Shown: positions 3,800-63,724 of the stretch, piece by piece
Position numbering within the stretch: the first letter of the stretch is position 1
Layout of the letters: every line of letters begins with the position of its first letter
Source of the DNA: Bacillus sp. EB01
Lineage (GTDB): Bacteria; Bacillota; Bacilli; Bacillales; Cytobacillaceae
Direction: 5' to 3'
Length of the DNA: 64,000 nt
NCBI RefSeq assembly: GCF_000613125.1
Contig: NZ_HG964497.1
Location: 212,910 to 276,909, forward strand
Notes under the pieces: model-generated
Databases searched by the model: none
The model's input: the letters and a program-made list of their open reading frames with translations, nothing else
What the model was told of the DNA's origin: nothing
Program-made: the position numbers and the translations under genes

Positions 3800-4184
3800 T
3801 CCTTCTCCCCCTTGATAACCATATGTAAAAAATGAAGACCGGTTTAATACTTGTTAGGTATTAAGTTGTTCCTATTTATTTTATTTCAAAATTTTATATT
3901 TTCCAATAATTTAGTCGATAATTATTAAAGATAACAAGTATTGCTCTATGATAATACAACTCTTTCCTATATACACCTTGGTTAAAAAACTGAAAAGAAT
4001 ACTATTCAGCTAACGCTATTAAAACGAAAGTCCAGAGGGGTAACGTTAACCATTGAGTTATTCAAGCTAACATAAAGATGCAAACAATCATCGGGAATAA
4101 ATCCTGCACCAACAAATAAAAAAAGACCCAGTGCACTTGGTCTCCTACTTTATGTTAAAGTTAAATAGCCTTAATATGAATGGT
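3800..4184. other. Intergenic spacer left of the selC-linked accessory region
   Basis: No coding gene is seen. The first 150 bases are AT-rich and should hold the promoter of the leftward flavoprotein operon. At 4119-4143 an inverted repeat AGACC / GGTCT followed on the minus strand by a T run looks like a leftward terminator, although no intact leftward gene lies directly upstream of it. Confidence 0.5.
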
Positions 4185-4246
4185 TGGCGGGACTGTGTGG
4201 GAATCGAACCCACCTGACCTGGCACGCAGGCGTCATGCGGTTTTGA
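4185..4246 (-). repeat. Partial selC 3' end, copy 1 (oldest attachment-site scar)
   Basis: The minus strand reads as the 3' half of tRNA-Sec: CCA end, acceptor strand, T arm with GGTTCGATTCC, and the variable arm up to the anticodon loop. Homology with the intact gene (40763-40860) breaks off near the anticodon. The variable arm is slightly altered. The part of element sequence that follows (4247-4372) is shared with copies 2 and 3. It marks the left boundary of the accessory DNA and is read as an attL-like scar. Confidence 0.85.
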
Positions 4247-7725: not shown

Positions 7726-8303
7726 TGAATCATCCCTTTCTAAGTATTTAAGGCCACCAGAATAAACATAACAGAAAATTCGGAAAATTAATGCCAAATT
7801 TTCTGAAAACTATAGAGTCTTTCTCGTCATATTTCGAGGATTCTAAAGATTTTTATAGGTAGAGTTTATATAAAATGAATAGGTACTAAATGATGTGATC
7901 AACTTTTTTCTTCAAAAACTTCATCGAACGATTAGCCTAACGAGGTTTAGGGACATTCGAACATCTATAATGCAGAAAGCTAAGCTTTTTCAAGGAGCTC
8001 TGTAATCGCATGGGTCAAGTACTCTCCAAGAGGTGTTTAAAAATGTTACATTGTATTCGCAGCCTTTGTAAGAATCTAAATCCTGCCAAAAGATTGAACC
8101 GGCAAATGTCAGTAACCTTTATAATTGTGGTAACTCTTTTCGTGTTTCCTCACACCTTTACGCATACAAAAAACCTCCAAATATAGTAATTTGAAGGCTC
8201 TGAATACACCCAGATTGCTTCTTGGTTTGACACAGTTTCCTTTAAAACGACTAAACGACTGTAGAGGTTGGAAATTATGTGTAAATGATTAAAAATCAAT
8301 AAT
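7726..8303. other. Spacer upstream of the peptidase gene, with gene debris
   Basis: The bases next to the peptidase gene are AT-rich and should hold its promoter. On the minus strand 7985-8060 reads …LGEYLTHAITELLEKA followed by a stop, which looks like the last codons of a lost gene. Its family is not identifiable. No intact ORF is present. Confidence 0.4.
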
Positions 8304-8366
8304 TGGCGGGACTGTGTAGGAACCGAACCCACTGACCTGGCGCGCAGGCGTCATGCTGCTTTGAAG
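8304..8366 (-). repeat. Partial selC 3' end, copy 2
   Basis: Minus strand carries the tRNA-Sec 3' half with several substitutions (for example GTAGGAACCGAACCC on the plus strand), making it the most diverged copy. The following 8367-8490 sequence matches the flank of copies 1 and 3. Read as an attachment-site scar separating segments I and II. Confidence 0.85.
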
Positions 8367-12831: not shown

Positions 12832-12898
12832 GAAATGAATATAGCTTGGCTAAAAGAAAAATTCTCCAAGTAATTGGAATTGTGCTTTAAGTGTGTAT

Positions 12899-12962
12899 TG
12901 GCGGGACTGTGTGGGAATCGAACCCACCTGATCTGGCACTCTGGTCACAAGCGGTTTTGAAA
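12899..12962 (-). repeat. Partial selC 3' end, copy 3
   Basis: tRNA-Sec 3' half on the minus strand, nearly perfect in the acceptor and T arm, changed at a few variable-arm bases (plus strand GATCTGGCACTCTGGTC). It breaks off at the anticodon loop and continues into the same ~125-base flank as copies 1 and 2 (12963-13090). It separates segments II and III. Confidence 0.9.
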
Positions 12963-17386: not shown

Positions 17387-17458
17387 TTTTGGCGGGACTG
17401 TGTGGGAATCGAACCCACCTGACCTGGCACGCAGGTCACAAGCGGTTTTGAAGACCGT
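17387..17458 (-). repeat. selC 3' end copy 4, attL of the 23.4-kb element
   Basis: 72 bases identical to 40760-40831 within and just beyond selC: the CCA end, acceptor, T arm, variable arm and anticodon loop/stem up to AAGACCGT. Identity stops abruptly on the left flank side. This is the left attachment site of the youngest element; the right one is in the intact selC gene. Confidence 0.93.
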
Positions 17459-22432: not shown

Positions 22433-22963
22433 TTAATCATCTCCATCTCCATTCACCTCTTTTGCCTCGTTTGATTTCCAATAGTGTTCAGCTAAAATAT
22501 TCGAAAAAACATCAATTGACCTTTCAAGTTCTTTTGATGTATTATCTACTCCTCCTACTTCCAATAATATTGCATTATTAGAAATATCCTGGTTATACAC
22601 ACCGTTTCCTTGACTCTTTGGTTTAAGGAATACTCCTCTACTAATTCCAGGATATTTGGATTCTAACATAGCATCCAAATTCTTAGCTGTTTCTAGGTTC
22701 TTAAGATAATTTTTATTAGCTTGACCTACAACGAAATATACTTTTGCATAGCTTACTCCATTTATGGTTTTAGTTGTTATCTCCCTCCTTGCTGAATCAC
22801 GATGTATATCAATGAAATAGTTTAGTTGATTACTTTCGCTTTTAGCAGCTGCCTGAACAAGATTTCTTGATAAATTATAAGCTTGTGAAGTCTCCCAGCC
22901 TCTTTTATGCAATTCTTTAGTCACATTTGTTTTATCGTGCTCCACCCCAATTCCTTTTTTCAT
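22433..22963 (-). pseudogene. Orphan C-terminal domain of SpoIIP (amidase/endopeptidase), 5'-truncated
   Basis: 176 codons matching the SpoIIP C-terminal catalytic domain: GIGVEHDKT, FIDIHRDS (the HR-D-S segment near residue 53), YNQDISNNAILLEVGGVDN near the end. Full SpoIIP is about 400 residues with a membrane anchor and acts in engulfment by cutting peptidoglycan. Here the coding similarity continues upstream of the ATG (…TVLNRLAANL) to a TAA near 23002, with no start codon or signal sequence, so the 5' two thirds are gone. Either a decayed gene or a small cytoplasmic domain protein. Repeat C2 starts 10 bases beyond the break. Confidence 0.7.
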
Positions 22964-30169: not shown

Positions 30170-30733
30170 CTAGCTTACAGGACGATTTTTAAGATAATCG
30201 TAAAAAGTTGTCCGGCTAACCCCGGTTTTCTTGGTGATCTCCGCAACGGAATAACGATTAGATTCATGGAGTGCAAAAGCCATTTCAAGCGCTTCAGCGT
30301 CAACTCTCGGACGACCAAGCTTAATCCCGGATTTTTTCTTTGCCGCAAGTTGCTCTTTTGTGCGTTCGGAAATGATGTCACGCTCAAGCTCCGCGATCGC
30401 ACCCATCATCCGAAAGAAGAATTTCCCCATAGCAGACGTTGTGTCAATCTTTTCACGAAGCGAGATGAAATGTATCCTCCTCTTTTCAAAACTCTCCACA
30501 AGCTCTTCCAGATGCTTGAGGCTCCTGCTGATCCGGTCTAGCTTCATGACAACGATCTCATCTCCCTCACGTGCGAATTCCAGCAGCCTTTGGAGTTCCG
30601 GACGGTCTTTCTTCATTCCGGAAACATGCTCTTTGTATATGTTTTCGTCTTCTACACCGGCTGCCTTCAGTGCCTCGATCTGCATCAACATGTCCTGGTC
30701 GTCAGTCGAAACACGTGCGTAACCCAGCTTCAA
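30170..30733 (-). CDS. Tn3-type serine resolvase/invertase
   Basis: A 187-residue small serine recombinase: KLGYARVSTDDQD with catalytic Ser near residue 9, HVSGMKKDRPELQRLL, MKLDRISRSLKHL, then the long E-helix and KSGIKLGRPRV and a C-terminal helix-turn-helix (SVAEITKKTGVSRTTFYDYL). The TTG at 30733 is chosen: AGGAGG lies 7 bases before it and the family always starts at this point. The longer in-frame reading to 30946 is spurious. Normal full length. A palindromic region just upstream may be its recombination site. Confidence 0.9.
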   Translation of the reverse strand: MKLGYARVSTDDQDMLMQIEALKAAGVEDENIYKEHVSGMKKDRPELQRLLEFAREGDEIVVMKLDRISRSLKHLEELVESFEKRRIHFISLREKIDTTSAMGKFFFRMMGAIAELERDIISERTKEQLAAKKKSGIKLGRPRVDAEALEMAFALHESNRYSVAEITKKTGVSRTTFYDYLKNRPVS

Positions 30734-30747
30734 ATTGTTTTCCTCCT

Positions 30748-30818
30748 GTTGTTCGGAAAAAGGGTTTTTGGATGTTTTTTCGGAAAAATCATTTTCCGTA
30801 CCCTTTTCCGGATATTTT
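30748..30818. promoter_or_regulatory. Palindromic region upstream of the resolvase, res-site candidate
   Basis: Nested inverted repeats GGAAAAAGGGT / ACCCTTTTCC and CGGAAAAAT / CATTTTCCG, several copies of TTTTCCGGA-like words. Small serine resolvases bind such repeats next to their own gene. Confidence 0.5.
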
Positions 30819-31108
30819 TTATTTGTTTTACAAAGAAAAAAACGATCCCTTAAATTAAATGACAATTGGTCAAATAAACGGTCGTTTTTCGAACTAACAT
30901 TATTATGTTTCAGGATTTCAAAATATAGACCTTCTCCAAAAAACAATAAAAAGCCGCCAAAATTTGACGACCTTTTTTACAATACTATTGGATTTTTCTT
31001 CAACATAAGCACCCGTTACTTCAAGAAGGAAAGTATTCCATAGACTCTGTTGAAATCCTAAGAAGGGCACAATATCGAGCCACTTCAGTTAGAAGCGACT
31101 CTATCGTT

Positions 31109-33190: not shown

Positions 33191-36016
33191 TTATGAAGCC
33201 GTAGCTGTTGCTGCATTTTTGATGTCTTTTATTTGTTGATCAAGAGCTTCAATTTCTTTTTTGACCCTAGGGAGTTCATATAACCAATCCTTCTCTTCAA
33301 GGTTATATTTTTTCTTGAACGCTCTCTTATAACCCTTAGAAATGTCTGCCAGGTATTGCTCTTTCTCTTCTTTATCTTTATTGAGCTGAGCTAAAGTCGT
33401 AGTTTCTTCATGAGAAAGTAATTCCATTTTACTCTGGGTCTCTTCCTTAGTATTCTGATCAGTATCCCGATCAACAATTTGCGGTTTACGGTATCCCTTA
33501 TTTATTTCCCAGTCATAAAAGCTCTTTAAAGGTGCGGCTTTTTCCAGCGGTTTTAGGTTGAAAGGGAAATTTAAAGCTTCGTCCATGATTTTAAAATAAT
33601 GGACAGCATTCGCATCCTTCGCATAAGTCTTTTCAACCAGGGGTTTTTTCATACTAAGGTTGTTCATATCATGACGGATATGAAGTTCAGCTACCCTCTT
33701 CAAGCGCTTTTCCAATTCCTTATCTGACAGATGCGTGTTATGAACCAAGATTTCCGCGACCGTATGCCGCAGGTCGTAATATCGGAAGGATTTTCTTTCA
33801 TTTTCAGGCAAAAAGTTGAACAATTCGTCCCGATATTCCCTAATCCAGGCTCCAATGTTTGAGGAAGAATATTTTTCATCCGGCAAGAAATCTCTGCTTC
33901 GGAATAAATAGCCCTCTCCTTTTGTATTTGGATGTTTCTTATTAAGGATTTTAAAGTAACTGTCAAGCGTTGTTACGAGCCCAGGAGGAATATAAGTACC
34001 CCACATTGGAGAGGCACCATATTCACCTTTTGAAATTTCCTTTCGGATATAAACGAGTCCATATCCGTTTTCATTGTTTGTAGGAACTGATGGTCCTGTT
34101 ATTCCATTCGAAGTTGTGTATACTTTATCCGGATTTAGTTCAAACCGTTGGAGATATCCATCCTCATTTAAAGCGAAATCAGAAATCTTTAAATGGCATA
34201 ACTCATCATTCCTGATTCCAATTAATCCACCCATCAGGAAGATGGCTTTGCGTTTAATCGGAAATTGGAAAGAAGGATGCTCAGTAATCCTTTTGGAAGC
34301 CAATAGAAGTTGTTCCCGAGTCAGGTGAACATCTATTCGCTCGTTCTTTGGGACAGGCTTGAATTGAGGAGTTTTATCAAAAGCATCCAGAATATCCTCT
34401 TCCCATAAGTCCAAAAGGTCCGATAGCCTTTCATATTCTTGCCTGTTCTCAGCTATATTTTCTTTTTCCGTGAGGAATTTCTTTTTGAATTTGCGAAGCT
34501 CTTGTTTTTTGGAAGCAAGGACATAATCAATAAACGGCTTGAAATAATGAGTTATCAACTCAAAATAGGTTGACTCTTCATAACCAGCCGCTATATAGTC
34601 TATATCCTCCGGATTAAAATCAGTCACTTCAAAGAGTGACGGATCGAATTTTTCAAGCTCTTCTTCGTTTAAAGGGCGGTATTTTCCAATGGTATTCATT
34701 TCCCAAAATTTGTCGATTCCGGAACGACCACAGATGATTTTGTACATGCAAATGCCCAGTTTCCTCATAATCCGCTCTCTGGTCTCTTCCTGTTTAACGC
34801 GTTTTTTTCTTTTGGTATTGCCTATCCTGCCGCCCTTTAAGAATGCAGTCACGGCTTCCTCCATTAGTTTTAGGAGGTGAGTTGCCCCTACTTCCTTTAA
34901 AAAATCCAACGGGGAGAAATTTTGACGGTTTTTAGTAAGGGCACGTTTATTTTCTTTGGCAATTTTATAAAAATTATCCTTAACCCATTGGATTTCATAG
35001 AGGGTGCCGTTTACTCTTGCTGGCTCAAGGAATCCCTTAACAGAATAACGCTTTAGAAGGACAATATTTACTGCTAGTAACTTTGATAAGCCTTCCAGCC
35101 CGGTAAAGTGTTCGCGGATATCTATTCCTCCTTGGATTTTATCTTTATTGAATAAATACTTCACACGCCTTGATGGACGAAAATCTCTTCCGGCTTTCAA
35201 ATAGAGATCGCTGTAATAACCCCTCTTTAAAATCTCATTCAAAGTAAAAGGCTTACAGTTAAAAAAGGGCAATGCTTCGTGATAATGAATTAAATCGGGA
35301 TGTTTGCTTTTAATTTCGTCCACAGATGGGAGCGAAGGGTCATAAACCTTGTCTTCAATAAAAAGATATGTGGGTTTTTGTTTTTTGTAACGACCGGAGT
35401 GATCAAAAAAATCAACGCCGTACTTCACAAAGATGCCCTTAAATTCTTCAAGTGTTTCATCGAACTCTTTCATTCGAGAATTTCTGGCTACGGCATCAAA
35501 TTTCATGATCAACCTGCTGCCTAAGCGTTGTTCAAGCTCTTCTACAGACGGAAGCTGATCAGTGTTTTTATATGGGGAAATCTCATCTACCTTGTCTTTT
35601 AAAAAAAGGTATTTATATGAGTCTCTAGTATTTCTAATATCCACTTCGTTTGTTACATAGAGAGATTTAACCATTCCTTTTGAAATATAAGTCCTCATCG
35701 TATTGGGGGTGATATATAGGATCTTACATGCTTCTTTGAAAGAAATGAGAGTAACGCCATTTAATTCTTCATATTCCTCCGGAGTGGGAAGTTCTTTATC
35801 TACCAATCGGCTTTTGATAAAGAAATATTTATACTTACTTTCAAGTTGGAAATCGACGTGATTAATTAAAACCGCGTCTTTGTAATACCCCCGTCTTACC
35901 CTTTCACGAAGACCTTGATTTGTGATACCAAGCAATTTCGATGCTTGATTTGTGTCAAGGATGTCATCCTTCAATTTCTTCTTTAGCTTGTCCAGGGTAG
36001 GCAAAACAGTACCCAT
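33191..36016 (-). CDS. Very large tyrosine-recombinase-like protein with N-terminal repeats
   Basis: 941 residues; ordinary tyrosine recombinases have 300-650. The N-terminal ~300 residues hold four repeats of about 75, each with an HTH-like helix pair (for example LDTNQASKLLGITNQGLRER, then ISFKEACKILYITPNTMRTY) and ending in a KYxF-I/L-K-D/S-K/R motif. The C-terminal half has the recombinase signature: Arg602 in GIRNDELCHL, Arg750-His751 in YYDLRHT, His-rich LHIRHD, and Tyr798 in EKTYAKD; the usual first box-II His is Tyr. The C terminus is a coiled coil. It should cut and rejoin DNA; the repeats probably read a long repetitive site such as 36071-36260 directly upstream. Confidence 0.8.
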   Translation of the reverse strand: MGTVLPTLDKLKKKLKDDILDTNQASKLLGITNQGLRERVRRGYYKDAVLINHVDFQLESKYKYFFIKSRLVDKELPTPEEYEELNGVTLISFKEACKILYITPNTMRTYISKGMVKSLYVTNEVDIRNTRDSYKYLFLKDKVDEISPYKNTDQLPSVEELEQRLGSRLIMKFDAVARNSRMKEFDETLEEFKGIFVKYGVDFFDHSGRYKKQKPTYLFIEDKVYDPSLPSVDEIKSKHPDLIHYHEALPFFNCKPFTLNEILKRGYYSDLYLKAGRDFRPSRRVKYLFNKDKIQGGIDIREHFTGLEGLSKLLAVNIVLLKRYSVKGFLEPARVNGTLYEIQWVKDNFYKIAKENKRALTKNRQNFSPLDFLKEVGATHLLKLMEEAVTAFLKGGRIGNTKRKKRVKQEETRERIMRKLGICMYKIICGRSGIDKFWEMNTIGKYRPLNEEELEKFDPSLFEVTDFNPEDIDYIAAGYEESTYFELITHYFKPFIDYVLASKKQELRKFKKKFLTEKENIAENRQEYERLSDLLDLWEEDILDAFDKTPQFKPVPKNERIDVHLTREQLLLASKRITEHPSFQFPIKRKAIFLMGGLIGIRNDELCHLKISDFALNEDGYLQRFELNPDKVYTTSNGITGPSVPTNNENGYGLVYIRKEISKGEYGASPMWGTYIPPGLVTTLDSYFKILNKKHPNTKGEGYLFRSRDFLPDEKYSSSNIGAWIREYRDELFNFLPENERKSFRYYDLRHTVAEILVHNTHLSDKELEKRLKRVAELHIRHDMNNLSMKKPLVEKTYAKDANAVHYFKIMDEALNFPFNLKPLEKAAPLKSFYDWEINKGYRKPQIVDRDTDQNTKEETQSKMELLSHEETTTLAQLNKDKEEKEQYLADISKGYKRAFKKKYNLEEKDWLYELPRVKKEIEALDQQIKDIKNAATATAS

Positions 36017-36346: not shown

Positions 36347-36700
36347 TTAGCCAATGAGAAACTCTTCAAGCTCTTCCAAACGTTGGATAGCTTTTGATAG
36401 TGATATATCTCCGTTCTTCTGATAGTGCCTTAAAATAATATTCCGGATTTGTTGGAACTCTTTTTTAGGATTGAAAATCCTAGCTTTTACATAATGAGGG
36501 TCATTTTTTGTATTTTCAAATAAATGGACTAGATCTAGAAAATGTCCAGTTTGTTTGCAACCAGAACAATTCCACGAACCTTCATGTGAATCCATAATTA
36601 CCCGGTCTTGACATATAAAACAAGGGAAGAAAACTGTTGTTTTTTCAAGGTAATAATCAATCTTCTTTTCCTTTAAGAATGAAATTGCTATAGTGTTCAA
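36347..36700 (-). CDS. Zinc-ribbon protein, DnaG/CHC2-like finger
   Basis: 117 residues. Cys27-x2-Cys30 and Cys45-x2-Cys48 in CFIC … WNCSGC, followed by GHFLDLV, the pattern of the primase-type zinc ribbon (FHC…C-F-x-C-G…GDVIDFV). No primase catalytic domain follows, so it is a stand-alone nucleic-acid-binding finger. TTG start overlaps the stop of the upstream excisionase-like gene. Confidence 0.7.
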   Translation of the reverse strand: MNTIAISFLKEKKIDYYLEKTTVFFPCFICQDRVIMDSHEGSWNCSGCKQTGHFLDLVHLFENTKNDPHYVKARIFNPKKEFQQIRNIILRHYQKNGDISLSKAIQRLEELEEFLIG

Positions 36701-36966
36701 CTAATTGCATCCCTTTGAGCTTTTGTTAACGGCATAGAATGAAGAAGGAATTCTTTAAAGTCACTACCTTTTATAGCATATTTGCCGCCAAACGAATAGG
36801 ACTTGAGTTTTCCGGATCTTAACCACCTACGAACTGTTTCAATATGAACATTTAAAACTTCTGCTACAAAACTCGGACGTAAGGTAGCTCCATCAGGAAT
36901 ATTCAAAAACTCATCGGTTAATTTGTTTTCTAAACCTAATTCGTCTAAAAGATTAATTTTACTCAT
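36697..36966 (-). CDS. Excisionase-type (MerR-like HTH) DNA-binding protein
   Basis: 89 residues with an HTH_17-type core: LRPSFVAEVLNVHIETVRRWLRSGKLKSYSFGGKYAIKGSDFKEFL. This winged helix is typical of excisionases and recombination directionality factors. It overlaps the zinc-ribbon gene downstream and lies inside the element near its three tyrosine recombinases, so a role in excision is likely. Confidence 0.8.
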   Translation of the reverse strand: MSKINLLDELGLENKLTDEFLNIPDGATLRPSFVAEVLNVHIETVRRWLRSGKLKSYSFGGKYAIKGSDFKEFLLHSMPLTKAQRDAIS

Positions 36967-38072: not shown

Positions 38073-38220
38073 TGTTATTACCTCCTTCTTATTATCTGTA
38101 TTGCCTTAGAAAAAGTTTTTATTACATTGTGTATAAAAATGTAAAACTGAAACATTCTATAGAACACAACTCAATAGAAACATCTAATAGGAAACATCAA
38201 ATATTATTTTGAGGAGGTTC

Positions 38221-39201
38221 ATGCTTCTGACACAGCAAAAAAAATTAGATGATGCATTCAAAGAATTTTTGGTTGTTCAATCGGTAAAAAAGGGATTAAA
38301 GGAACGGACAGTCCGTGAGCATAAGGTCCACTTTGATTATTTCAAAAGCTATCTAAAAAACAGCGGAATTCAAGTTGCAAATGTAAACGATGTTACGGAT
38401 ATGATTTGCGCCGGATACTGGGAATTTCTCCGGAACAAAGTGAAATGGAGCGACCATAGACGGATTGGAAGTAAGCTCAAGAACGAGGAAAAAGGATTAT
38501 CCCAAACAACAATAAATATCCGGACGCGGACCCTGAAGGCTCAGTTTAATTATTATAAGAAAAAGGGTTATATTCTTGACAACCCATGGCAGGAATTCAA
38601 TTTGAGGCATGAAGACGCTACGCCAAGGTATTGGAGCAAGTCAGAACTTTTCAGGCTGTTAGATGCTATAAACGCCGACTCGTTCGAAGGCGAACGTGAC
38701 CGGGCTCTGTATCTGTTCCTCCTTGATACCGGAGCCCGGATTGGTGAAACATTACAGCTTAATGAATGGAATTTTGATTTGAACGAAGGAGAAGTTCATT
38801 TCCCCGCACAAATCACAAAAAACGGTCATCCCCGTACAAGCCCCCTGGGCAAGGATACCGTCACATTGCTCCAGAGGTTGTTTAAACGAAATTCTGAGGT
38901 TTCTCCTAAAACATCTTACGGAGCATTCATTACTGGAAATGGTACACGAATCACCTATGCCGGAGTCCGGGACAACCTTGTGAGGTATGCGAAGAAAGCA
39001 AAACTGGATCATGCTCATTTTCACCAATTTCGTCATTCCTTTGCCGTCCATTACACGTTAAATGGAGGAGACGAAGTATCGCTGATGCAAATTGGTGGAT
39101 GGAGAGCACAGCAGTCCTTAAGGCGATACCGGACACTGACAGAGAACGATTTGAAGAAGCAGCACCAAAAGTTTGCGCCCGTTAACAGTTTGTTTCAATA
39201 A
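38221..39201 (+). CDS. Tyrosine recombinase, XerC/D-like, 326 residues
   Basis: SAM-like N-terminal DNA-binding domain (residues 1-115) and catalytic domain with Arg in DTGARIGETLQL, the HxxR box HQFRHSFAVH, GGWRAQQSLRRY with the Tyr nucleophile. ATG at 38221 has GAGGAGG seven bases upstream. Convergent with the second recombinase at 39564 over a small coiled-coil gene. Both have the same domain order, suggesting they act together or are alternative integrases of one element. Confidence 0.9.
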   Translation: MLLTQQKKLDDAFKEFLVVQSVKKGLKERTVREHKVHFDYFKSYLKNSGIQVANVNDVTDMICAGYWEFLRNKVKWSDHRRIGSKLKNEEKGLSQTTINIRTRTLKAQFNYYKKKGYILDNPWQEFNLRHEDATPRYWSKSELFRLLDAINADSFEGERDRALYLFLLDTGARIGETLQLNEWNFDLNEGEVHFPAQITKNGHPRTSPLGKDTVTLLQRLFKRNSEVSPKTSYGAFITGNGTRITYAGVRDNLVRYAKKAKLDHAHFHQFRHSFAVHYTLNGGDEVSLMQIGGWRAQQSLRRYRTLTENDLKKQHQKFAPVNSLFQ

Positions 39202-39563: not shown

Positions 39564-40607
39564 TTAAAATAAGTCGTTTAAAGGACTGAATTGATTATGC
39601 TGCTGTCTTATATCTTCACCATTCATTTGGATATACTTCCGGACCATATTCATTGTTGAATGACCCAGGATTCGCTGTAAGGTGAACGCATCACCACCGT
39701 TCAATATATAAAATTTCGCGAATGTATGTCGGAATGTATGAGGAGAAACACGGACATTTGTGATCCCAGCCTGTTCCCCGTAGGTTTTTATTCTGGAACG
39801 AACCCAGCTTGGGTCGATTCTTCCTCCGTAATTGGATAAGAATAAATGCTCGGTATCTTCAAATACACTATTTTCTTTTATTAGTGTCTGTATCATTTTT
39901 GCTGTTCTTTTTGACAATGGAAGTATTCGTGCGCTTGTATTCTTGGCAAGTGGAGCAGGTACTCTTATCATTTTTTGTTCAGAATAAAAATCACTGATGG
40001 TTAGACCCAGTGCTTCATTTGCTCTTATTCCAGTATCCAAAAATAATAACATTAAGGTATAATCCCTGAACCCTGCATATGTGCGTTGGTCGGGCTGTTT
40101 TAATAGTTCGATGATTTGCTGTTTTGAAAATGCTACGATTGTATCCTGTTCTGTTTTCAGTAGCTTAATCCTTTTCGTCGGATTTTCTGGAATATGACCT
40201 TCGTCAGCAAGGAATTTAAACAGGGTTTTTAGCGTCCTTAGCCGTATGTTTATAGTTGTGGCGGCAAGACCCTTCTTCTCCGTCTTATACCTCACAGAAG
40301 CCTGTGTGTGGTCGTCCCACAGTCGTTTTTCTTTTCCCATATAATAAATATAGTCCCGGATCATTTCAGTCGTGATATCTGCCGCCAAATGAACATCCGG
40401 ATATCGATTCCTCAGGAACAGGGTAAAATAACCGTAGTTGGTGAAATGGTCCTTCAATGTACGTTCCCTGAGCCCCTCAAGCTCTTTTGCTCGCATGAAG
40501 ATAGCGAATAGCTCATCAAGTGACCTTTCATGCACAACATTTGTCTCTTCTTCTGTAAAACGCCTTGATGCTGTCTTTTTTCCTTTTCGTTTGCTTTGTT
40601 CAGCCAA
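39564..40607 (-). CDS. Tyrosine recombinase, likely integrase acting at selC
   Basis: 347 residues. N-terminal SAM-like domain, then catalytic Arg in DTGIRANEALGL, HTFRHTFA, LGHSTMNMVRKYIQ with the Tyr nucleophile. TTG at 40607 is chosen because AAGGAGG lies 8 bases upstream; ORF codons before it carry no start signal. It stands 156 bases from the CCA end of intact selC, the usual place for a tRNA-targeting integrase, and 23 kb from the other copy of the attachment core. It is the best candidate for the enzyme that inserted element IV. Confidence 0.9.
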   Translation of the reverse strand: MAEQSKRKGKKTASRRFTEEETNVVHERSLDELFAIFMRAKELEGLRERTLKDHFTNYGYFTLFLRNRYPDVHLAADITTEMIRDYIYYMGKEKRLWDDHTQASVRYKTEKKGLAATTINIRLRTLKTLFKFLADEGHIPENPTKRIKLLKTEQDTIVAFSKQQIIELLKQPDQRTYAGFRDYTLMLLFLDTGIRANEALGLTISDFYSEQKMIRVPAPLAKNTSARILPLSKRTAKMIQTLIKENSVFEDTEHLFLSNYGGRIDPSWVRSRIKTYGEQAGITNVRVSPHTFRHTFAKFYILNGGDAFTLQRILGHSTMNMVRKYIQMNGEDIRQQHNQFSPLNDLF

Positions 40608-40762
40608 AACAAAAACCTCCTTCGCTTTTTGTCGGGGTTTTGCCCAAACATACGCAAAGGAGGTCACACGGTCTGTTTTATCTACCCCACACGGTCTATG
40701 GGGAAAACAAAACAGTATGTATAAAATTCCAATTCATCAGAAACCTTGATGGTTCAAGGGTT
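40608..40762. promoter_or_regulatory. Right element end: integrase promoter and arm-type repeats
   Basis: CACACGGTCTG (40665-40675) and CACACGGTCTA (40688-40698) repeat the word ACGGTCT, which is also the inner end of the attachment core. The same word occurs twice at the left end (17560, 17586). Confidence 0.55.
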
Positions 40763-40860
40763 TTGGCGGGACTGTGTGGGAATCGAACCCACCTGACCTG
40801 GCACGCAGGTCACAAGCGGTTTTGAAGACCGTGGAGGACACCAGTACCCCATTCAGCCCC
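40763..40860 (-). tRNA. selC: tRNA-Sec (UCA)
   Basis: 98 nucleotides with encoded CCA. The minus strand shows an acceptor stem GGGGCUG pairing with CAGUCCC plus discriminator G, D arm with GGGG…CCUC, anticodon loop CUUCAAA with UCA (40823-40825), a seven-pair variable arm UGACCUG / CAGGUCA, and T arm GUGGG UUCGAUU CCCAC. The long acceptor-T stack, long variable arm and UCA anticodon identify selenocysteine tRNA. The gene is intact although its 3' half is part of a 72-bp duplication created by integration. It serves UGA recoding with SelA, SelB and SelD, which are outside this window. Confidence 0.95.
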
Positions 40861-62856: not shown

Positions 62857-63333
62857 GAGCCCACCTCATTTCGCTTTTCTTTTTCCCATCATACCAAAAC
62901 TTCATTGAATACTCTAATCCTGAAAAGTCCAATCTTGATGAGACGGTCAATTTTTGACGCATCGAATTTGTTACCATTTGTGTCCAAACTAGTGAATACT
63001 GGCGATATAATTGTGACAATGGGGGATATATTCTCAGTAGCGTCCGATAAATTTGTGGAAAAGGGGGATATATTTCTAAAACAGTCCGATAAATTTTTAG
63101 TAACGGGGGATAAACTCTATTCGACGGGGTAGCTGCGGATACTAGTTGACCTGTCTATACAAAACAGTCCGCATCTGATTGGTTACCGAACATCGTTCAC
63201 CATCCCGCAGGCAACCCAGCTGTGAAACATTCGCTGTGTATCAAGAAAAATCGAGGCGTGACAGGCACTGTTCGCATTTTTCGCAGCGCTCGCTAAAAAC
63301 CAAATCCCATCAGGAACCGCACACCACAAAAAA
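62857..63333. repeat. Spacer with tandem repeats (~43 bp, about three units)
   Basis: At 62985-63125 units of the form GGGGGATATATT … GTCCGATAAATTT recur two and a half times with drift; related words extend to 62940. The rest (63130-63330) is GC-richer with no gene seen. Confidence 0.7.
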
Positions 63334-63356
63334 AGAGGCCGAGGCCTCTTTCAGTA
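63334..63356 (-). terminator. Terminator of the glutaredoxin gene
   Basis: Minus strand AGAGGCC / GGCCTCT followed by TTTTTTT, ten bases after the stop codon. Confidence 0.88.
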
Positions 63357-63365
63357 AAATCACAA

Positions 63366-63599
63366 TCACTTATTCACATACTGCATCAGGGTTTCAGGGT
63401 CGAAACCGAGCACCCAATGGCCATTTACTTTTGTTTGCGGCACACCCATTTGACCGGTTTCATCAACCAACCGCTGTGCTGCAATCGGGTCATTTTGTAC
63501 ATTAACTACTTTATAGTCCAATCCTTGAGCCTCAAGGAAGTTTTTCATCATTGTGCAGTACGGTCAAGTGTTGGTTGTGTAAACTGTAATATCGTTCAT
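63366..63599 (-). CDS. Glutaredoxin/NrdH-type protein with in-frame UGA (probable selenoprotein)
   Basis: 77 codons plus TAA if UGA is read. ATG at 63599 has GGGAGG 8 bases upstream. The protein begins MNDITVYTTNT, then UGA (63564-63566), then PYCTMMKNFLEAQG, so UGA replaces Cys12 of the CPYC redox motif. The rest is a normal glutaredoxin fold: GQMGVPQTKVNG with the cis-Pro, and GFDPETLM. Starting after the UGA would remove the first strand and the active site. The window has tRNA-Sec, so selenocysteine (UPYC) is the simplest reading; sequencing error or a nonsense mutation is the alternative. Expected role: thiol-disulfide reduction in the cytoplasm. A hairpin 25 bases after the UGA may be the SECIS element. 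Confidence 0.88.
63522..63538 (-). promoter_or_regulatory. Candidate SECIS hairpin after the UGA codon
   Basis: mRNA UCCUUGA-GGC-UCAAGGA: seven pairs with a GGC loop, starting 25 nucleotides after UGA. Bacterial SECIS loops lie at a similar distance and often carry GGU or GU; the loop here is GGC, so the fit is partial. Confidence 0.5.
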
Positions 63600-63724
63600 T
63601 TTCCATTCCTCCCATCATCTTACTCATAAAGTAGCAAATCGGCTTACCTCTTACAAATTATCTGCCCAAAAGCCCTAAAGGATACCGTCCTTATTTTTCT
63701 TTCCCTCTTTTTTCGTTTCTAAGC

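Follow-up and report, generated by a model that had tools for sequence, protein, structure and literature searches.

Glutaredoxins that carry selenocysteine (Sec) in a UxxC active site are already known, and the Bacillaceae gene described here is a new branch of that family. The UxxC Sec-glutaredoxin stands above the 'Predicted' heading in the table of PMC9312934, that is, as an established family, and the Grx selenoprotein (UxxC, PF00462) is reported from Clostridium (Alkaliphilus) oremlandii. According to the 2026 review PMC13188914, only certain species are known to have Sec-containing Grx, and the presence of Sec makes catalysis more efficient. Glutaredoxin selenoproteins of Geobacter sulfurreducens, Alkaliphilus metalliredigenes and Moorella thermoacetica are given in the relevant part of the 2006 survey PMC1794560, where the Bacillales are credited with three selenoproteins whose names are not given at that place. 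Among the open-licence papers of our literature search, no title or abstract start pointed to a Bacillaceae Sec-glutaredoxin gene.

The locus lies in a 64,000-nucleotide stretch of the genome of Bacillus sp. EB01 (hereafter the window; contig NZ_HG964497.1, positions 212,910 to 276,909). The original prediction, made from the letters of the window, had described without naming a strand a ribosome-binding site with ATG, 11 codons, an in-frame TGA at the first Cys of a CPYC motif, 65 further codons, a stop and a terminator, and all these elements were found again, on the minus strand. With TGA read as U, the translation is MNDITVYTTNT-UGA-PYCTMMKNFLEAQGLDYKVVNVQNDPIAAQRLVDETGQMGVPQTKVNGHWVLGFDPETLMQYVNK, that is, 77 codons running through PYC to VNK and followed by a TGA stop, whereas the plus-strand reading of 63366-63599 gives no glutaredoxin-like or sensible protein and was rejected. 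The features are as follows.

63366..63599, minus strand: predicted selenoprotein glutaredoxin gene, 77 codons and stop, active site UPYC (translation, PF00462, AlphaFold2)
63597..63599, minus strand: ATG start codon (same start aligned in close relatives)
63608..63613, minus strand: GGGAGG, resembling a ribosome-binding site, 8 nt 5' of the ATG (by eye)
63564..63566, minus strand: in-frame UGA at codon 12, proposed Sec codon, first position of CPYC (TGA at 25 of 70 related loci, TGT/TGC at 45)
63522..63538, minus strand: SECIS-like hairpin UCCUUGA-GGC-UCAAGGA, 7 bp, 3-nt loop (all 25 TGA genes, consensus fold, pair counts, 18-mer pattern)
63366..63368, minus strand: stop codon, also TGA (translation; without a qualifying hairpin behind it)
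63331..63352, minus strand: intrinsic-terminator-like hairpin with T run, 3' of the stop (consensus match only)
40764..40860, minus strand: tRNA-Sec gene, UCA anticodon (ARAGORN; Rfam RF01852, 65.2 bits, gathering score 47)

The product matches PF00462 Glutaredoxin (1.9e-18, 66.9 bits, cut-off 22.9), and with C in place of U it scores 82.9 bits (1.6e-23) against NCBIfam TIGR02196 GlrX_YruB, below the cut-off of 88.55; by these profiles it appears to be related to the YruB type, not filed as a member. Membership in the UXX-star or distant Grx-like protein 1 group was rejected, as all four scores are far under their cut-offs (NF041212, 43.6 against 66; NF041114, 23 against 72; NF041211, 28.1 against 100; NF047338, 28.8 against 97). 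A thioredoxin-domain match in PHROGs (phrog_22, 4.6e-16) added no information. The AlphaFold2 model, again with C for U (pLDDT 95.7, pTM 0.84), has a helix at residues 13-24 directly after residue 12, which places the active site at the helix start of a thioredoxin-type fold, and the closest solved folds in Foldseek include cGrx2, BC3987, NrdH and cGrx1.

A single in-frame stop could also be a recent inactivating nonsense mutation in a pseudogene, or an error of sequencing or assembly by which a TGT or TGC came to read TGA: with the ordinary code, only a 61-aa frame that begins after the active site stands in the mechanical ORF list, and the gene differs from its Cys homologues by this one codon. 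The original prediction held a random nonsense mutation to be unlikely and proposed an alignment of homologues at codon 12, and the relatives bear it out. A protein search of 151 genomes (the own genome and 150 relatives) at E <= 1e-10 returned 79 match rows in 66 genomes; 70 of the 79 loci were read, and the remaining nine rows have no internal stop in the match table. Codon 12 is TGA in 25 of the loci read, TGT in 34 and TGC in 11, and each of the 25 has only one TGA within the match, always at codon 12. A named collection returned 55 loci, with TGA at codon 12 in 26 and a Cys codon in 29; it overlaps the unnamed set and many genomes are identical, so that the counts are not additive. Among the named carriers of TGA are Bacillus sp. 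FJAT-27225, Mesobacillus campisalis, M. subterraneus, M. maritimus, M. boroniphilus, M. selenatarsenatis SF-1, Neobacillus kokaensis, N. mesonae, N. piezotolerans, N. notoginsengisoli and N. terrae.

The 24 other genomes with TGA at codon 12 keep the remaining frame open, which speaks against a nonsense mutation, and outside the hairpin the TGA genes conserve their amino acids while synonymous sites vary; decay elsewhere in the gene, which the original prediction had named as a refutation, was not seen in the remaining frame. The rows that do look broken are different: in two of them (L082 and L088) a TAA interrupts the frame at another place, and a copy in M. boroniphilus (L138) loses its frame late in the gene by a frameshift. 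Because the same codon is TGA in 24 other genomes, the worry about a sequencing error can be answered without raw reads; the same TGA stands in 25 separate assemblies. Moreover, the hairpin described below goes with TGA and not with Cys. On these comparisons both explanations are effectively excluded, the mutation being extremely improbable and the error close to negligible.

The gene neighbourhood of these loci is not uniform and was set aside as a guide to function. Homologues of spoVK and/or hflX adjoin the TGA gene in N. terrae and in the eight genomes that belong to the window's genus, and likewise the Cys copies of several records of Mesobacillus and Cytobacillus type; the remaining TGA copies have neither homologue within 1.5-2.5 kb on each side, and three of these loci have differing neighbours in the ORF lists. 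The neighbour names (spoVK, hflX and hfq) are putative and given by the appearance of the sequences.

An addition to the original prediction is a SECIS-like hairpin at an accepted distance behind the UGA. The 24 close TGA genes, without exception, show no synonymous difference in codons 21-26. In these genes, each window of six codons between 17-22 and 21-26 has the highest possible value, 1.0, where the median over such windows is 0.22, and the Cys genes have no such synonymous peak (top value 0.27, or 0.44 in the closest 18 Cys genes). Since synonymous variation is also suppressed at codons 16 and 19-20 of the TGA genes, the constraint may begin upstream of the stem. In an alignment of 36 TGA segments, 22 of them distinct, no stem cell is left unpaired, while slid versions reach at most 58% of cells. 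Two stem pairs are changed on both sides, both in the distant gene L070 (49% identical, genome G122), one of them to G-U; no variation is seen at the other five pairs, which are uninformative alone, and the stem is invariant in the other 35 aligned rows, so that covariation support comes from one sequence, L070. This gene (contig G122:C2) encodes a glutaredoxin with UPHC at its active site; its hairpin, of 9 bp, likewise has a spacing of 32 nt. The hairpin 18-mer TTCCTTGAGKSTCAAGGA occurs in 25 of the 151 genomes, once each and by coordinates always inside the glutaredoxin gene, and a backward-pattern control gave zero occurrences in the same genomes. As the 18-mer was drawn from TGA genes, its occurrence in 24 of them follows from the choice of pattern; beyond these 24 it was seen once, in the Cys gene L041 of genome G072.

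The limits for bacterial SECIS elements in the part of PMC13188914 that treats them are a loop of 3-9 nt with G in its first two bases, a stem of 4-16 bp, a spacing of 16-37 nt and an MFE of -7.5 or lower. In our own implementation of such a test, which folds 51 nt and is not bSECISearch, 25 of 25 TGA genes fall within these limits. The hairpin lies at +29 to +45 in each of them (T of UGA as 1), with 7 pairs (9 in L070), a loop of GGC, GGG, GTC or GGA, and 32 nt from UGA to loop; the energy of the 51-nt stretch is -7.6 kcal/mol or lower, and the window gene, at about -7.6 kcal/mol, is narrowly inside the limit. Among 43 Cys genes (two TAA-bearing ones left aside), 13 satisfy the shape limits and 8 of these the energy limit as well, and L041 alone has its hairpin at the same position; shape limits alone are poorly selective, because 13 of 43 Cys genes pass them. 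A point against the reading is that the spacing of 32 nt differs from the 17, 18 and 18 nt of the hairpins of selD and two fdh-like genes within the window's own genome; the narrow margin in energy is another. An Rfam search around the gene with E up to 10 gave four weak matches and no SECIS family; one of them, a snoR35 overlapping the hairpin, is at chance level (11.2 bits, gathering score 40, E 8.5) and was discarded.

The genome (one contig of 5,282,259 bases) carries the machinery for Sec. The tRNA-Sec that the original prediction had reported in the window was recovered by both programs given in the feature list, and of 17 genome matches it alone lies over the gathering score. The genes selA, selB and selD, for which the original prediction had proposed a search, are all present over their curated cut-offs: selA with 572 bits (cut-off 267.9), selB with 358.6 bits (242.25) and selD with 399.5 bits (125), the selD match having one in-frame TGA of its own. 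Two formate-dehydrogenase-like matches have one TGA each, and one of the two is over the family cut-off. The second formate-dehydrogenase-like gene (L152, G000:C1:563673-566480), with its in-frame TGA, has a match broken into four pieces that lie in long open frames, and it looks divergent or as if it had a large insert, and does not look decayed. In addition, the window was scanned for other TGA-interrupted frames with at most two TGA per frame, and none was convincing by eye; owing to this limit the scan missed even the glutaredoxin gene and is no evidence that such frames are absent.

Across the 151 genomes, selA is over the cut-off in 109, namely in 25 of 25 genomes with a TGA gene and in 84 of the 126 others (Fisher p 1.2e-4, uncorrected for kinship). 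Because kinship is uncorrected, this co-occurrence may be taken as supportive only. Among the 66 glutaredoxin-bearing genomes selA is found in all 25 TGA genomes and in 35 of the other 41 (p 0.05), and the link is weak there, since most genomes with the Cys form have selA too. A full-length product would also be expected if the UGA were read through by an ordinary near-cognate tRNA (Trp or Cys), or if TGA were reassigned throughout the genome. The glutaredoxin gene itself ends in TGA, against a global reassignment, and behind this stop the same test detects no hairpin within the limits, the sole hairpin having the loop CTCG without G in its first two bases. Tryptophan at position 12 would cost the enzyme its catalytic residue, and neither form of this explanation accounts for the hairpin or the selA link, which leaves it very improbable. 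Taken together, the conserved TGA, the SECIS-like hairpin and the Sec machinery strongly support the probable UPYC selenoprotein of the original prediction, in which a stop codon is very probably used to insert Sec at the active site.

Partial copies of the tRNA-Sec gene are found elsewhere in the window. Its 3' part recurs exactly over 72 nt at 17387-17458, and diverged copies of it (94, 85 and 94%) stand further left, at 12895-12961, 8303-8366 and 4184-4246; all have one orientation. The stretch between the tRNA-Sec copies, from 17.4 to 40.8 kb, in which 18 ORFs were scanned in one or both libraries, contains the following.

39564-40667, minus strand: tyrosine recombinase, starting just behind tRNA-Sec
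38209-39201: second tyrosine recombinase
36697-36966: excisionase-like protein
33191-36016: 941-aa protein with weak profile matches only
30170-30946: serine resolvase
22433-22963: SpoIIP-like protein

The tRNA-Sec 3' copies and the tyrosine recombinases suggest that an integrative element of about 23 kb sits in tRNA-Sec, with a row of older remnants.

Turning to the history of the glutaredoxin itself, two Cys genes group with the TGA genes: L041, which has TGT together with the full hairpin and whose genome has selA, and L029 (genome G036), a Cys form with a partly altered hairpin. A tree was built from 68 rows over 56 columns, without codons 12-28 and without the two rows that carry TAA. It joins the 25 TGA rows with four Cys rows (93/96, not starred) and has five or more changes of label; most of its forks are open, the bootstrap is not settled, and L070 sits on a long branch with unreliable placement. 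Since L041 and L029 group with the TGA genes, a change from Sec to Cys would be the simplest reading, its direction being unproven by this weak tree. The hairpin of L041 is likely a fossil of a recent change of this kind, selA being still in the genome. The 2006 survey PMC1794560 found few Sec-to-Cys changes, most of which concern two other families.

A TGA copy stands beside at least one stop-free copy in nine genomes (G010, G034, G041, G050, G061, G071, G080, G086 and G122), as it does in Bacillus sp. REN3 (L096 and L105). Such pairs would fit a use of the UGA and hairpin mainly as a selenium-dependent switch, with translation stopping after 11 residues when selenium is lacking and Cys paralogues carrying the load. 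The window genome, in turn, has no second glutaredoxin copy of this type at E <= 1e-10, hence no backup of this type, and we consider a switch improbable as the main role.

We regard it as nearly certain from the comparative evidence that the gene encodes a functional selenoprotein of glutaredoxin fold, a 77-residue UPYC redoxin in which SelB would insert Sec at codon 12 by means of the hairpin. SelA, with selenophosphate from SelD, would produce Sec-tRNA-Sec, and SelB carrying it would recognise the hairpin, whose loop lies 32 nt behind codon 12, so that Sec would be inserted at the UGA instead of termination. The selenolate of Sec12 would then attack disulfides or other oxidised substrates, Cys15 would resolve the intermediate, and re-reduction might be carried out, as for NrdH-type redoxins, by thioredoxin reductase or bacillithiol and not by glutathione. 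Glutathione seems unlikely as the reductant, because in the genome profile search BshC (575.7 bits, cut-off 265.8) and a thioredoxin reductase match over cut-off are present, and PF04262 glutamate-cysteine ligase, the only ligase family searched, has no match.

The gene would thus be a conserved, selected-for selenoprotein redoxin of Bacillaceae such as Mesobacillus and Neobacillus, whose active site is lost from the called protein when TGA is taken as a stop. As close relatives have this 77-residue enzyme either with Sec or with Cys, the two residues could be compared cleanly, and in one relative Sec seems to have given way to Cys while the SECIS survived. A bolder combined reading is tentative, and we would give it somewhat less than an even chance: a Sec-redoxin wired to the bacillithiol or thioredoxin-reductase system of Bacillaceae without glutathione, a long-spaced SECIS (32 against 17-18 nt), and a reversion from Sec to Cys that left a relic hairpin in one relative.

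Like the UxxC Sec-Grx family, the window protein has a glutaredoxin fold, Sec first in UxxC and common Cys homologues. It is 32-36% identical in fold alignments to cGrx1 and cGrx2, both among the closest solved folds and presumably the proteins of C. oremlandii. A seleno-MsrA partner as in C. oremlandii was considered and dropped, since the single MsrA match in the genome has no internal stop and points to no seleno-MsrA of that family. With the distant Grx-like protein 1 or UXX-star group (NF041114 and kin), as far as the part of PMC13188914 on these proteins goes, it shares a glutaredoxin-like character and Sec at the first active-site position, but those proteins are UxxT and the window protein is UxxC. 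In fold it is also close to the short redoxins NrdH (1h75) and BC3987 (3zij), with TM-scores of 0.86-0.87 to the model at 28-34% identity; both, we assume, have Cys where the window protein has Sec, and we take the host of BC3987 to be Bacillus cereus. Unlike the known Sec-glutaredoxins, the window protein has a YruB-like sequence and a Bacillaceae host with BshC and without a PF04262 match.
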